Of a DNA stretch of 33,890 nucleotides, positions 2,522 through 20,523 are shown in pieces. Both the position numbers and the translations under genes were made by a program. The stretch is from NCBI GenBank assembly GCA_004211695.1, contig SEEV01000026.1:1-33890 (forward strand), written 5' to 3'. Source of the DNA: Rhodococcus sp. (in: high G+C Gram-positive bacteria). Lineage in GTDB: Bacteria > Actinomycetota > Actinomycetes > Mycobacteriales > Mycobacteriaceae. The notes below the pieces were generated by a model. The model was not told the DNA's origin. It was given only the letters and a program-made list of their open reading frames with translations, and ran no database searches. The number at the start of each line of letters is the position of its first letter. The first letter of the stretch is position 1.

Positions 2522-2925
2522 CCGTCGCCGGCGGCGGGGCGAGCAACCTGCCCCAGAGCTCGGGTGGTGGATTCGGCGGCGGGCACCAGTCCACGAACCT
2601 CGGGGACATTCTCGAACGAGTGCTCGACAAGGGGCTGGTGATCGCCGGGGACATCCAGGTCAATCTCCTCGATATCGAACTGCTCACGATCAAGGTGCGG
2701 TTGGTCATCGCCTCCCTCGAGACCGCGAAGGAGGTGGGCATCAACTGGTGGGAGAACGACCCCTGGCTGACCGGGAAGAGCAGCGACCTCGAGCTCGAGA
2801 ATCGGAAGCTGAAGGAACGCATTGCCGCGCTCGAGTCCGACCGGTCGGTGCGCCCCGCCGTCGAGGCCGGCGAAACGGTGCAGGTGGAGGGACGACGTCG
2901 AGGGGAGGACGATGACCGAGAGTGA
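2518..2925 (+). CDS. gvpJ: GvpA-like minor gas vesicle protein GvpJ
   Basis: 135 residues. Residues about 27-85 are a GvpA-family domain of the J type: LGDILERVLDKGLVIAGDIQ, then VNLLDIELLTIKVRLVIASL, then the diagnostic GINWWENDPWLT. The N-terminus is Gly/Ser-rich, and the C-terminus is a charged heptad-like helix (LELENRKLKERIAALES) that could form a coiled coil. GvpJ is a minor shell or nucleation protein in characterised systems. It overlaps gvpO by four bases and gvpL by fourteen. Confidence 0.9.
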   Translation: MTVAGGGASNLPQSSGGGFGGGHQSTNLGDILERVLDKGLVIAGDIQVNLLDIELLTIKVRLVIASLETAKEVGINWWENDPWLTGKSSDLELENRKLKERIAALESDRSVRPAVEAGETVQVEGRRRGEDDDRE

Positions 2926-3700
2926 CGGTGTGTGGCTGTACGGCATCACGTCGGCGAGCGTCGGCGACGCACAACTGTCCGGGGTCACCGGCGTAGCCGG
3001 CGAGCCGGTGCGGGTGGTGGCGTCGGCGGGCCTCGCCGCGGTCGTCGGATCGGTGAGCCTGAGCGAGTACGGAGAAGGTCCGTTGCAGCGCAACCTCGAG
3101 GATCTCGACTGGCTGGCCGCGACCGCGCGAGCCCACGACGCGGTGGTGGCCGCGGTCCTGCGCTGTGGGCCCACCATTCCGCTGCGCCTCGCCACCTTGT
3201 ACCTCGACGACGATCGGGTTCGCCGCCTCCTCGACGAGCGTCACGAGGAGTTCGACGCCGCACTTCGCCAGGTCACCGGGCGGACCGAATGGGGAGTCAA
3301 GGCCTACGGTGACCCGAAAATCCTGGCGCAGCCACCCGCCGAGGAACCCGGCGCGAAGGGCGGCGCCGGCAAGGGGACCGCGTATCTGCTGCGCCGCCGC
3401 GCCGAGTTGACGGCCCAGCAGGACGTCGAACGCAAGGCGGCCGACCATGCGCGCAAGATACATTCCGCCCTTCTCTCCCATGCCGTCGACGGCCGACGCC
3501 AGCAGGTGACCGATCCGGCCATCACCGGCAGACGAGCGTGGATGATCTTCAACGGCACCTACCTGGTGGCCGACGAACTCGTCGACGAATTCGCCTCGGC
3601 CGTCACGGCACTCGACGCCGAACACGACGGGGTGACGCTCGAACTGACCGGGCCGTGGCCCCCGTATTCGTTCGCGGGGATCGACCAGGCGAACCCATGA
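2912..3700 (+). CDS. gvpL: Gas vesicle protein GvpL (GvpF/L family)
   Basis: 262 residues from ATG 2912. The frame is open further upstream (to 2822), but that extension is Arg/Pro-rich antisense-like coding of gvpJ, and GGGGAGG precedes 2912, so the shorter start was chosen. Family markers are VWLYGITSA at the N-terminus, TIPLRLATLY and WGVKAYGD in the middle, and GPWPPYSFAG at the end. It carries a Lys/Gly insert (GAKGGAGKGTAYLLRRRAEL) typical of the longer GvpL/F branch. It overlaps gvpJ by 14 bases and gvpS by four. Confidence 0.92.
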   Translation: MTESDGVWLYGITSASVGDAQLSGVTGVAGEPVRVVASAGLAAVVGSVSLSEYGEGPLQRNLEDLDWLAATARAHDAVVAAVLRCGPTIPLRLATLYLDDDRVRRLLDERHEEFDAALRQVTGRTEWGVKAYGDPKILAQPPAEEPGAKGGAGKGTAYLLRRRAELTAQQDVERKAADHARKIHSALLSHAVDGRRQQVTDPAITGRRAWMIFNGTYLVADELVDEFASAVTALDAEHDGVTLELTGPWPPYSFAGIDQANP

Positions 3701-16758: not shown

Positions 16759-18267
16759 GTGTACCCACCCGCAATCGTCGCCGAGCACCCCGAATCCCTC
16801 GCGTTCGTGATGGCCGGTTCCGGCGCCTCGCTGACCTACCGTCAGCTCGACGAGCAGTCCAACCAGCTGGCCCATCTCTTGCGCAGCCGGGGTGTATCGC
16901 CGGGCGACTCGATCGTGCTGCTGATGGAGAACCGCATCGAATGGCCCGTGGTCGTCGCGGCGGGCATGCGCTCGGGACTGTATGTGACACCGGTGAATTG
17001 GCATCTCGGGGCCGCCGAACTCGCGGCCGTCCTCGAGGAGGCGGCGCCGAACGCCGTGGTGACCAGCGGTTCGCTCGCCGAGACAGTCGCCGAGTCACTC
17101 CCGGACGGTCACACCGCCCTGACCCTGTGCACGGATCCCGGCACCCGATTCGAGTACCTCGCCGCGGCGATCGAGGCACATCCGACGACGCCCATCGCGG
17201 ACGAGCGTTTCGGCGCCCGCGTGCTCTACAGCGGCGGCACCACCGGCCAGCCGAAGGCCTTCCGGCAGAAACTGCTCGACATCCACCCCGCCGCCGCACC
17301 CTCCCGCCACGCCGGGCTGGCCGCGGAACTGGGCATCGGCCCCGGCACCGTGCTGCTGTCACCCGCCCCGAACTACCACGCGGCGCCGTTCACGTTTCAG
17401 CTCATGACGATGGCCGCCGGCGGCACGGTCGTATGTATGGAACGTTTCGACGCCGCGGCGGCGATGGCCACGATCGAGACCTACGGCGTCACGCATTCGC
17501 AGTGGGTGCCGACCATGCTGCTGCGACTGCTCCGGCTGCCCGGGCGCGAGACCATCGCGCTCTCCCCGACCCACACCACCGCGTTCACCTCCGGCGCCCC
17601 CTGCCCGGTGGAGGTGAAGGAGCAGATCAACCAGTGGTGGGGGCCGATCCTGCACGAGTACTACGGCGCCTCCGAGGGGTACGGGCACACGTATGTCTCC
17701 GCCTCCGAATCCGCCGACCACCCCGGGTCGGTCGGCAGACCGCTCGGTGGCACGAGGGTCCACATCACCGACGACGAGGGAACACCGCAGACGCCCGGTG
17801 AGATCGGCAAGGTGTGGTTCGAGCCGCCGGCATCGGCCGCGTACGTCAACTCCGCCGAAGCCGGCGCACCCGACAGCTGGAAGAGCATGGGGGACCGGGG
17901 TTATCTCGACGAGGACGGCTTCCTGTACCTCGTCGGACGCGAAAGTTTCATGATCATCTCGGGCGGGGTGAACATCTACCCCGAGGAGATCGAGGCAGTC
18001 CTCCTGCGCCACCCGGACGTCGTCGACGCGGCCGTGTTCGGCATCCCCGACCCTGAATTCGGCGAGCAGGTCAAGGCCATGGTCGAACTACGCGAAAAGG
18101 TTTCAGCAGACGAGACCACCGAGTCCCGCCTCATCGACCACTGCCGGGCAGCCCTCGCCACCTACAAGGCGCCGCGGTCGATCGACTTCGTCGACCGCCT
18201 ACCGCGACTTCCGACGGGCAAACTCAACAAGAAGGCATTGCGCTCGCCCTACCTCACCAACTCGTGA
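16759..18267 (+). CDS. Acyl/aryl-CoA ligase (AMP-forming, FadD-like)
   Basis: 502 residues from GTG 16759. The adenylation motifs are complete: P-loop YSGGTTGQPKAFR (about 153-165), HEYYGASEGYG, the ATP-binding GDRGYLDEDGFLYLVGR, hinge ISGGVNIYPEEIEAVL, and the C-terminal catalytic Lys in LPTGKLNKK. It forms an acyl-AMP and then an acyl-CoA. The chain is somewhat shorter than long-chain FadD proteins, similar to medium-chain or aromatic acid ligases. It is divergent from the P450 operon across a 149-bp region with two matching palindromes, suggesting that the acid produced by the ALDH is its substrate (inference). Confidence 0.92.
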   Translation: MYPPAIVAEHPESLAFVMAGSGASLTYRQLDEQSNQLAHLLRSRGVSPGDSIVLLMENRIEWPVVVAAGMRSGLYVTPVNWHLGAAELAAVLEEAAPNAVVTSGSLAETVAESLPDGHTALTLCTDPGTRFEYLAAAIEAHPTTPIADERFGARVLYSGGTTGQPKAFRQKLLDIHPAAAPSRHAGLAAELGIGPGTVLLSPAPNYHAAPFTFQLMTMAAGGTVVCMERFDAAAAMATIETYGVTHSQWVPTMLLRLLRLPGRETIALSPTHTTAFTSGAPCPVEVKEQINQWWGPILHEYYGASEGYGHTYVSASESADHPGSVGRPLGGTRVHITDDEGTPQTPGEIGKVWFEPPASAAYVNSAEAGAPDSWKSMGDRGYLDEDGFLYLVGRESFMIISGGVNIYPEEIEAVLLRHPDVVDAAVFGIPDPEFGEQVKAMVELREKVSADETTESRLIDHCRAALATYKAPRSIDFVDRLPRLPTGKLNKKALRSPYLTNS

Positions 18268-18314
18268 CCGCGCCACGGCACTTGCCGCCGACCGAACCGA
18301 ACAGGAGCCAGATC

Positions 18315-18947
18315 ATGGTTCACACCCAGCAAGACCAGCTTGACTTCGACATCCTGCACTCGCTGCGCGTGAAGGGTTTGGCCAACGACGGCGTGCTCAG
18401 CGCGCTGTCCGGTGTGGCCCCCGAAGACCTGCCGGCGGCGGTGGATCCGCTCGTCGAACAGGGTTTCGTCGTCCGGAGAGAAGGCCGGATGGCCGGATCG
18501 ATGCTGACCCCCGCCGGGAAGTCCGAACATCTGCGGCTGCTCGCCGCCGACCCCGCGACCGCGGGCGGGTCCGGCGCACTGGGCGCCTTCTACGACCGGT
18601 TCCTGCCGATCAACTCCGAATTCAAACAGGTGTGCCGGCGGTGGCAGATGCGTAGCGACGACACCCCGAACGACCATTCCGACCCGGGCTACGACACCGA
18701 AATCGTCGAGCAGCTCGCAGCGACGGACGCGGAACTCGTCGCTCCGCTGACGGAACTGTCCGAGACGCTGCCGCGCTTCGCGCGCTACCTACCCAGGCTC
18801 GCCGCCGCACTCGACCGCGTCCGGTCCGGTGACAACGCGGCCTTCGCTCGGCCGATGTACGACAGCTACCACGACATCTGGATGGAACTGCACGAGGATC
18901 TCATCCTCAGCTCGGGCCGCACCCGCAGCGCGGCCGACGAGGGCTGA
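18315..18947 (+). CDS. Winged-helix-like protein of the P450/kinase locus
   Basis: 210 residues from ATG 18315, chosen for AGGAG eight bases upstream; GTG at 18264, overlapping the ligase stop, would add 17 unlikely residues. The N-terminal 75 residues look like a winged helix: LDFDILHSLRVKGLANDGVL, then a wing-like EQGFVVRREGRMAGSMLTPA. The remaining 130 residues are predicted helical with many charged and aromatic residues (VCRRWQMRSDD, YDSYHDIWMELHEDLIL). It might be a MarR/PadR-type regulator, or a partner subunit of the short PPDK-like kinase. It lies 47 bases after the ligase stop and is probably in the same transcript. Confidence 0.7.
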   Translation: MVHTQQDQLDFDILHSLRVKGLANDGVLSALSGVAPEDLPAAVDPLVEQGFVVRREGRMAGSMLTPAGKSEHLRLLAADPATAGGSGALGAFYDRFLPINSEFKQVCRRWQMRSDDTPNDHSDPGYDTEIVEQLAATDAELVAPLTELSETLPRFARYLPRLAAALDRVRSGDNAAFARPMYDSYHDIWMELHEDLILSSGRTRSAADEG

Positions 18948-18989
18948 CCTCACTGGCGAAAGCAATCGACAATCGCAAACACGTCTGCC

Positions 18990-19256
18990 TCAGCCGGTCT
19001 CCTCGAGGTCGGCGTGGGCAAGGCAGATATGCGCAAGGTCGTCGAGGGGCACGGAGAGGGTGCGGGCCAATGCTGCAATAGTCGTGAATGCCGGAGTCGG
19101 CATCCGGCCGGTCTCGATCTTGCGCAGAGTCTCCGGCGAGATCGCTGCCGCCTCTGCCACCTCGGCGAGCGTGCGATCGCCTCGAGCGTGACGCAGACAC
19201 GCACCCAGGCGTTGCCCGGCCGCGAGTTGGGCAGGAGTCAGCGGGAGACGCACCAT
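18990..19256 (-). CDS. XRE-family (Cro/CI-type) transcriptional regulator
   Basis: 88 residues. A lambda-repressor-like helix-turn-helix spans about residues 18-75: RLGACLRHARGDRTLAEVAE, then AAAISPETLRKIETGRMPTP and LARTLSVPLDDL. There is no additional ligand or protease domain. It is divergent from the methionine aminopeptidase gene, and two identical-architecture palindromes lie in the shared 95-bp promoter region, so it probably represses itself and the aminopeptidase gene (inference). Confidence 0.85.
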   Translation of the reverse strand: MVRLPLTPAQLAAGQRLGACLRHARGDRTLAEVAEAAAISPETLRKIETGRMPTPAFTTIAALARTLSVPLDDLAHICLAHADLEETG

Positions 19257-19276
19257 GCAACCAGCCTACTCGAAGG

Positions 19277-19292
19277 CGGTATGAAAATACCG
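19277..19292. promoter_or_regulatory. Palindromic operator 1 between XRE and map
   Basis: CGGTAT-GAAA-ATACCG, a perfect 16-bp palindrome with core GGTAT-N4-ATACC. It lies 21 bases upstream of the XRE start codon. Its centre is 31 bp, about three helical turns, from that of the second palindrome. Confidence 0.75.
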
Positions 19293-19308
19293 GACAATCG
19301 AGTACGGT

Positions 19309-19322
19309 GGTATTTTAATACC
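19309..19322. promoter_or_regulatory. Palindromic operator 2 between XRE and map
   Basis: GGTATT-TT-AATACC, a perfect 14-bp palindrome with the same GGTAT-N4-ATACC core as operator 1. It includes TAATAC, a plausible -10 element for map. Confidence 0.75.
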
Positions 19323-19351
19323 GGCCATCGGGCCGGGTGGAGAGGAAACCC

Positions 19352-20140
19352 GTGCTGGAACTGAAGACACCTCGAGAGATCGAGGCGATGCGCGTCACCG
19401 GCGCATTCATCGCCGAACTGCTCGACGACCTCGCCCGCCGGGCCCGGCCAGGGACGAACCTACTCGACCTCGAAAACCGCGCCCGCCAGCTGATCGCCGA
19501 ACGCGGCGCCCAGTCGTGCTACTGGGATTACGCGCCGTCGTTCGGGCGAGGTCCGTTCCGCAACGTCATCTGCCTTTCGGTCAACGACGCAGTGCTGCAC
19601 GGTCTGCCGCACGACTATGCACTGCGTGACGCGGACCTGCTGACCATGGACATCGCGGTGTCGATCGACGGTTGGGTCGCCGATTCGGCGCGGAGTGTGA
19701 TCGTCGGTGTCCCGCGAGCCGAGGACGAGCGCCTCATCGAAGCTACCGAACGTGCCTTGGCAGCGGGGATTGCCGCTGCGCTGCCCGGCAACCGCTTGGG
19801 CGACATCTCCGCGGCGATCGGCGCCGTGGCGGCGGACTACGGGTACTCGGTCAACACCGAGTTCGGTGGCCACGGACTCGGGCGCACCATGCACGAAGAC
19901 CCACACGTCCCCAACGTGGGACGGGCGGGACGAGGTCTCAGGCTGCAGCCCGGATTGACCCTTGCGCTCGAACCCTGGTTCGCCCGCAGCACCGACAAGA
20001 TCATCTACGACGACGACGGGTGGACCATCCGCTCCGCCGACGGATCTCGTACCGCTCACAGCGAACACACCATTGCCATCACCGACGGCGCCCCACTCGT
20101 GCTGACGTGTCCGGAGCACATCGCGGCATCCGCACAGTAG
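19352..20140 (+). CDS. map: Type I methionine aminopeptidase
   Basis: 262 residues from GTG 19352 (GGAGAGGA upstream); an in-frame GTG at 19337 precedes that binding site and is less likely. It removes N-terminal Met from new proteins. Metal-binding and catalytic residues are visible: His in NDAVLHGLP, Asp in LLTMDIAVSIDGWVADSARS, His in FGGHGLGRTMHEDP, Glu in LALEPWF, and Glu in AHSEHTIAIT. Length is normal and there is no N-terminal SH3-binding extension. Actinomycetes usually carry a housekeeping map elsewhere, so an XRE-controlled copy may be an accessory enzyme (inference). Confidence 0.92.
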   Translation: MLELKTPREIEAMRVTGAFIAELLDDLARRARPGTNLLDLENRARQLIAERGAQSCYWDYAPSFGRGPFRNVICLSVNDAVLHGLPHDYALRDADLLTMDIAVSIDGWVADSARSVIVGVPRAEDERLIEATERALAAGIAAALPGNRLGDISAAIGAVAADYGYSVNTEFGGHGLGRTMHEDPHVPNVGRAGRGLRLQPGLTLALEPWFARSTDKIIYDDDGWTIRSADGSRTAHSEHTIAITDGAPLVLTCPEHIAASAQ

Positions 20141-20178
20141 TCCGGCACCTCCACAAACCCAGGCCGGCCGTATCAGCA

Positions 20179-20286
20179 TTACGTCGATTCGAGAGGCTCG
20201 TAGCCGGAGCCACCGCCCCAATGGCGCCACTTGATCGCGAACGTGATCATGTAGTTGATGTTGCCGGTCTCGTGTATGGGTTGCAT
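20179..20286 (-). CDS. Short ORF (35 residues), possibly the 3' part of the gene at 20314
   Basis: 35 codons from ATG 20286 to TAA 20179, encoding NINYMITFAIKWRHWGGGSG then YEPLEST. The composition (aromatics, GGGSG turn, few Arg) looks like real protein, unlike antisense readings in the area. No ribosome binding site is visible, and the frame is continuous with the 69-residue ORF upstream, separated only by the amber codon at 20314-20316 and nine sense codons. It may be the C-terminus of a gene with a nonsense mutation. No family recognised. Confidence 0.4.
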   Translation of the reverse strand: MQPIHETGNINYMITFAIKWRHWGGGSGYEPLEST

Positions 20287-20313
20287 CAGTGGTGGTGTGC
20301 GCTCGAGTCGTCG

Positions 20314-20523
20314 CTATCGTTGTGCGAACAGATGGGCGGGTCCGCCCCCTTCGAGTTCGTCTGCCCCTCTGCCGGGGAGAATGATCCAATACCCGGCTGG
20401 CCAGGTGCGGATATCCTGTCGGTTACGGTCCAGAACGGTCAGCGCCCCGCTCACTGTGACGGTCGCGAGGTGACCCGGCGAGAAGAATTCGATGACGCTG
20501 TCGGCAAGAACGGCGGACTTCAT
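20314..20523 (-). CDS. Small protein of unknown function (69 residues)
   Basis: 69 residues from ATG 20523, with AAGGGAA upstream. The sequence is plausible protein: MKSAVLADSVIEFFSPGHLA, then TVTVSGALTVLDRNRQDIRT, WPAGYWIILPGRG and a Gly/Glu-rich end. No signal peptide or known motif. It follows the SDR gene on the same strand by 102 bases and could be the last gene of the permease-SDR unit. It stops at TAG, after which the frame stays open for 44 more codons to 20179. Confidence 0.5.
   Translation of the reverse strand: MKSAVLADSVIEFFSPGHLATVTVSGALTVLDRNRQDIRTWPAGYWIILPGRGADELEGGGPAHLFAQR

Follow-up and report, generated by a model that had tools for sequence, protein, structure and literature searches.

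Why should a methionine aminopeptidase (MAP), an enzyme treated as constitutive housekeeping, stand behind a pair of matching palindromes and beside a small DNA-binding protein of the XRE family? This question arises from a window of 33,890 nucleotides (the whole stretch of DNA analyzed) in Rhodococcus sp. contig SEEV01000026.1 of assembly GCA_004211695.1. Within the literature searched, the regulation of bacterial MAP is almost unstudied. The explanation that we favor, and hold to be highly probable, is a dedicated regulon with one target, in which the XRE protein would bind both palindromes as operators and repress an accessory map gene along with its own. With a one-target regulon one could study the conditions under which a bacterium requires extra methionine excision and the way in which it would notice them.

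A divergent xre–map pair and its promoters

The gene xre (18990–19256, minus strand) encodes P0001, an 88-residue stand-alone helix-turn-helix (XRE) protein identified by Pfam profile match, and map (19352–20140, plus strand) encodes P0002, a 262-residue type I MAP matching TIGR00500. The map start is the GTG at 19352; an earlier in-frame GTG lies at 19337, and a predicted ribosome-binding site, GGAGAGG, occupies 19339–19345 on the plus strand. Measured from the XRE start codon to the GTG at 19352, the divergent intergenic gap is 95 bp, as originally reported. The closest named relative is Rhodococcus jostii NBRC 16295 (MAP 98% and XRE 95% identical), and the window's own assembly is 74% complete. 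Elsewhere in the window, an AMP-ligase gene (16759–18267) is followed by a 227-residue frame (18264–18947) without a Pfam or NCBIfam match at 0.001.

The gap holds two GGTAT-N4-ATACC palindromes, operator 1 (GGTATGAAAATACC, 19278–19291, one base inside the start of 19277 first given for the feature) and operator 2 (GGTATTTTAATACC, 19309–19322). Both are exact, share the same core and start 31 bp apart, in agreement with the preliminary description, and each read towards its own gene they are alike (GGTATTTT). The window contains no further exact match (analytic expectation 0.008 per window), and each of the three other palindrome-scan matches in it has two mismatches. That expectation, the conservation of the palindromes and their genome-wide placement at MAP promoters (below) rule out an origin by chance. 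The phasing of about 31 bp, presented earlier as three helical turns, is true here and common elsewhere but is not fixed. Among 62 distinct two-site promoters of family A (the form with the spaced 14-bp palindrome, family B being a second form), the spacing is 31 or 32 bp in 47, 21 to 30 bp in 13 and 43 or 45 bp in 2, and this range of 21–45 bp rules out a fixed 31-bp phasing as a requirement. Bias in these 62 promoters extends to the base preceding operator 1 when read in the direction of xre, to the G following it and to the T-rich palindrome center; the flanks are more variable.

How are the operators placed relative to the promoters? The predicted −10 element of xre, TAGGCT (19263–19268, minus strand), lies 6 nt before the ATG, and that of map, TACGGT (19303–19308, plus strand), abuts operator 2. 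Both proposals rest on conserved TANNNT positions; a sigma-70-type consensus scan of 18900–20400 under a stricter rule gave no match. In all 83 distinct family-A promoters a TANNNT ends 5–8 nt ahead of the XRE start codon (base shuffles averaged 4.5 and reached at most 11), as it does in 25 of 26 distinct family-B promoters (average 2.0, at most 7). From this position, and because 190 of 194 distinct XRE genes have 6 or 7 nt between the −10 and the start, the xre mRNA is predicted to be leaderless. A leaderless map mRNA was rejected, being unsupported in family A (2 of 83 promoters versus 4.1 in shuffles) and found in no more than 8 of the 26 family-B promoters (versus 1.9). The map-proximal palindrome is directly abutted by a TANNNT in 61 of the 83 distinct family-A promoters; the likely −10 of map stands beside operator 2 and not, as had been supposed, under it. 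The predicted map start point would fall within operator 2, while operator 1 would cover the predicted −35 regions of both promoters.

We infer binding by the XRE protein, its repressive sign and autoregulation. The protein would recognize GGTAT half-sites, arranged in family A as the 14-bp GGTAT-N4-ATACC; it would repress map with operator 1 over the predicted −35 and operator 2 over the predicted start, and it would repress its own gene through operator 1. Release of the repressor would then allow the MAP to be made, adding methionine-excision capacity. The XRE protein might instead be an activator, or an activator and a repressor depending on the site, in the manner of restriction-modification control proteins, which we judge improbable. 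Structural matches of P0001 include the control proteins C.BclI, C.AhdI and C.Esp1396I; P0001 is bare and small as they are, and control-protein mRNAs can be leaderless, as is predicted for xre. A common fold shows no function, however, and the position of operator 2 over the predicted map start in family A would be a repressing one.

What kind of enzyme would the repressor hold down? P0002 passes TIGR00500 with 239.2 bits (cut-off 171.35), and D100, D111, H174, E207 and E238, which we take to be the Asp, Asp, His, Glu and Glu metal ligands of MAP, are invariant in an alignment of 22 rows; by its sequence, P0002 is a type I MAP. Near its substrate pocket it carries an insert of 6 residues. The MAPs of families A and B share an insert of 5–6 residues, which is missing in the alignment from three housekeeping rows and from that of Escherichia coli. 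Family-A MAPs also have a Trp after Glu-Pro, where E. coli MAP presumably has Met. The check proposed earlier, a search for a second map gene, comes out in favor of the module in relatives: all 13 same-genus genomes searched with TIGR00500 encode two other MAPs above the cut-off, scoring near 305 and near 250–260 bits, and 11 of the 13 have one or two XRE-linked MAPs (none in G007 and G015). In the window's own assembly, 74% complete as it is, the module MAP alone passes TIGR00500. Close relatives have both housekeeping MAPs, and we take them to be missing here through incompleteness. As part of the regulon explanation, P0002 is very probably an accessory MAP that supplements the housekeeping enzymes.

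Operators and regulator across actinomycetes

How far does the arrangement extend beyond this contig? Scanning named genomes once yielded 494 MAP relatives, and the best 80, which we kept, span Rhodococcus, Mycobacterium/Mycolicibacterium, Williamsia, Gordonia, Kibdelosporangium, Kutzneria, Amycolatopsis, Actinomadura and others. In 77 of these 80 loci the 140 bp upstream of MAP contain one or two perfect palindromes (two in 55, one in 22; none in L070, L108 and L109), and a divergent XRE gene adjoins MAP in 68, truncated in one (L070). Since the palindromes accompany the XRE–map pair in other actinomycetes, the earlier characterization of the locus as a small self-contained regulatory module holds. 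L070 (Gordonia rhizosphera, 2780–3030) has an XRE gene without its N-terminal part, both operators gone and a MAP, 84% identical, whose frame runs on, which looks like one deletion; it and L142, from the same species and likewise with a truncated XRE, were dropped from the set of 135 XRE matches.

Starting from the regulator, 81 XRE loci comprise 61 with a divergent MAP, 2 with another arrangement and 18 with no MAP in the stretch read; 23 further XRE loci comprise 21 with a divergent MAP and 2 with no MAP nearby. With a MAP as partner in 61/81 and 21/23 loci, and with no restriction gene named in the five plasmid regions read, P0001 does not show the gene linkage of a restriction-modification control protein. 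Two loci (L355 and L198) have XRE and MAP in tandem on one strand, with a palindrome between them in L355. At three others (L138, L139 and L140), XRE has no MAP beside it and is preceded by TTATCCACA-like stretches that we take to resemble DnaA boxes; these XRE genes may lie near a replication origin. Family B comprises many genes, its XRE proteins being 50–67% identical to P0001 and divergent to MAPs about 50% identical to P0002. In most of its 26 distinct promoter sequences the half-sites are the same but abut head to head as ATACCGGTAT in place of the spaced palindrome.

At 1e-12, XRE matches occur in 23 of 396 genomes of the phylum and, in the class, in 162 of the 394 genomes sampled; 24 of 28 genomes of the genus have a match at 1e-20 or better, with weak matches only in G007, G014, G015 and G019. 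A tblastn search of P0001 against a phage collection gave no match at 1e-5, and on that result a phage origin was rejected. Plasmid records with an XRE match number 23. The five regions read all have map beside XRE, four divergently and one (Tsukamurella) in tandem, among differing neighbors and with no restriction genes named among their features.

Are the operators specific to these promoters? GGTAT-N4-ATACC occurs at 27 sites in 21 genomes (the window's own, 12 relatives of the same genus and 8 of the same order), 12 of them at these MAP promoters. In the center, these 12 carry no more than one G/C and the other 15 at least two; ten of those 15 were read and have neither XRE nor MAP present, and five were judged by coordinates. 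One of the 12 precedes a truncated MAP copy (G017:C1:2860649-2861109; TIGR00500 101 bits, profile 16–148) with an intact GGTATTTTAATACC just upstream, and this is a decayed second copy that kept its operator. The narrower pattern GGTAT-W4-ATACC, scanned in the 394 genomes of the class, gave 25 sites in 19 genomes, versus 3 sites for the backward control pattern. Twenty-two of the 25 sites, in 16 of the 19 genomes, lie just upstream of an insert-type MAP, and XRE is beside that MAP in 15 of the 16 genomes and on another contig in one (G541). The remaining three sites (G648, G750 and G794) have neither gene in the stretch read.

Operators also follow the regulator from genome to genome. We examined the 29 best non-own insert-bearing MAP loci in a search of the phylum, a selection and not every match. 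At least two half-sites lie upstream of MAP in 11 of 14 loci from XRE-positive genomes versus 0 of 15 from XRE-negative ones, that is, genomes with no match at 1e-12 (Fisher 1e-5, uncorrected for kinship). The three XRE-positive loci without a GGTAT/ATACC half-site are L215, the second MAP copy in its genome, and L220 and L224, where XRE is adjacent and the motif degenerate. A Streptomyces-like locus (L222) whose genome has XRE elsewhere (L182) kept its half-sites. Insert-bearing MAPs without XRE in the genome account for 15 of the 29 loci, so the enzyme does not need XRE.

Co-occurrence extends to loci at which the two genes are separated. Twelve of the best 80 MAP loci have no adjacent XRE, which might seem to count against the pair, but in 12 of 12 cases the genome has XRE elsewhere (55–67% identity), resolving the discrepancy; a perfect palindrome is kept in 10 of the 12. 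Of these distant XRE genes, five adjoin a family-B MAP, two a partial match where the stretch ends and five no MAP. We also chose 18 further genomes with XRE but no MAP within the stretch read. In 16 of them, 20 insert-bearing MAPs could be read, and every one has a half-site or more (at least two in 12; one of the 20 adjoins a second XRE copy), versus one of ten MAP loci scored as insert-free, among which L328 lacks its start. One of the 18 genomes (G517, XRE locus L306) yielded no insert-bearing MAP.

Comparison of genomes shows that the pair and its operators are conserved, that the operators are confined to these MAP promoters and that operator and regulator occur together even when the regulator gene lies elsewhere. 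On this comparative evidence the reading as a module is strongly supported. Because half-sites follow XRE presence (20/20 versus 0/15), the XRE protein most likely represses only itself and the insert-bearing accessory MAPs, or little else.

What would the repressor be for? It might simply set dosage, an uninduced, autoregulated XRE protein holding the accessory MAP low and steady. Consistent with this possibility, the two genes share their operators, an arrangement found in many autoregulated pairs, and the protein is a bare DNA-binding domain. We consider it somewhat unlikely: regulator and operators are retained in many lineages, also in trans, which indirectly suggests a condition under which they matter. 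The preliminary description had offered protection against an inhibitor, in which case the MAP would tolerate a natural MAP inhibitor and the XRE protein would release map upon exposure. The insert near the substrate pocket, the family-A Trp (against the presumed E. coli Met) and the presence of the module on plasmids with differing neighbors (5 of the 23 matching records read) would fit such a role. It nevertheless appears unlikely, as the XRE protein is without a ligand domain, insert-bearing MAPs also occur without XRE and no tie of this enzyme to resistance was found in the literature searched, as far as the available portions of those sources go.

The N-terminus of the XRE protein

Could the dedicated repressor sense the activity that it controls? 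P0001 exceeds the Pfam cut-offs of HTH_31 (44.7 bits, cut-off 27), HTH_3 and HTH_26, and by these profiles and its structural model it is a bare DNA-binding domain. The recognition stretch is nearly invariant in both families, with Glu42 to Glu48 invariant in 113 distinct sequences. The N-terminus of P0001 is Met-Val-Arg-Leu-Pro-Leu-Thr. Among 194 distinct XRE proteins, 193 have Val-Arg at residues 2 and 3, the Val being encoded by four different codons, and the sole exception (L286) is aligned only from residue 9. Val2, Arg3 and Pro5 are invariant in 43 XRE representatives below 85% identity, in which mean conservation is 0.87 for the arm (residues 2–7), 0.70 for helix 1, 0.97 for the recognition region and 0.59 for residues 68–74. 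At three loci (L190, L259 and L294), a start codon just before the Met fits the −10 spacing better, and these XRE proteins may begin one codon earlier, as Met-Met-Val-Arg. Residue 2 of the MAPs themselves is Leu in 65, Val in 55 and Ile in 18.

In the model (mean pLDDT 89.7, 79 over the first ten residues) helix 1 begins with residue 8, which places the arm ahead of the folded core. The closest solved structure, 2OFY (phmmer E 2.5e-23), aligns with the model at Z 14.5 and rmsd 1.7 over 82 residues with 56% identity. Its residues 1 and 2 appear to be unmodeled, since the aligned chain starts at residue 3 and covers all 82 modeled residues.

Our preferred guess for the signal is the loss of methionine excision itself. 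Translation of a leaderless mRNA would give an XRE protein that begins (f)Met-Val-Arg. Where MAP activity suffices, the Met would be removed, and the short processed N-terminal arm would help to hold the operator; upon a shortfall of MAP or deformylase the Met would be retained, binding would fail and the accessory MAP would be made. Human cells need their full MAP set for Met removal from Met-Val and Met-Thr N-termini, according to the available part of PMC5325365, and by that account Val2 would be a fitting probe of spare MAP capacity. A Val2 that is a marginal MAP substrate, as these human data support, leads to the bold reading of a repressor whose own N-terminus reports on methionine excision. 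We regard this as unlikely: Val2-Arg3 may be conserved simply through contact of the arm with DNA, and the three XRE genes that may start one codon earlier count against it. If true, it would make the repressor a sensor of a new kind, a transcription factor responsive to N-terminal methionine excision. More generally, MAP inhibitors directed against actinobacteria might meet an inducible extra enzyme.

Relation to known systems

How does the proposed one-target regulon compare with systems already described? No description of the XRE–map pair was found in the literature searched, including the available portions of PMC1266368, PMC9861041, PMC3154147, PMC5325365 and PMC5593965. P0001 resembles C.AhdI, C.BclI and C.Esp1396I in being a stand-alone XRE fold that would control an enzyme gene (Z 10–11.3) and differs from them in having a MAP as its partner and in sequence identity of 10–19%. 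ClgR shares the XRE fold, at 30–32% identity in structure matches, but P0001 falls far below the NCBIfam ClgR cut-off (21.2 versus 170 bits), ruling out that identification. The structure 2OFY, a putative XRE-family regulator from Rhodococcus sp. according to its entry title, belongs to the same protein family as P0001 and has the same Met-Val-Arg start. It was deposited in 2007 without a function and would gain one from the regulon proposed here; the sole paper found to name it uses the structure only in simulations, judging from the available text (PMC9861041).

Multiple map genes in one genome are on record: the accessible table of PMC1266368 gives Streptomyces coelicolor and Nocardia farcinica three each and S. 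avermitilis four. The same source, in the part available, describes yflG of Bacillus subtilis as a second functional MAP with very low expression and YvoA as a possible weak repressor. As is proposed for the module MAP, yflG is a second, nonessential MAP that accompanies an essential housekeeping enzyme and whose transcription is kept low (PMC1266368, available part). The effect of YvoA is only slight and is connected with N-acetylglucosamine metabolism in that account (PMC1266368), whereas in the module a small XRE gene adjoins map, with dedicated operators in many genera. The trio of XRE, map and operators, recurring in many actinomycetes, suggests that an enzyme supposed to be housekeeping is under a control circuit not yet described.
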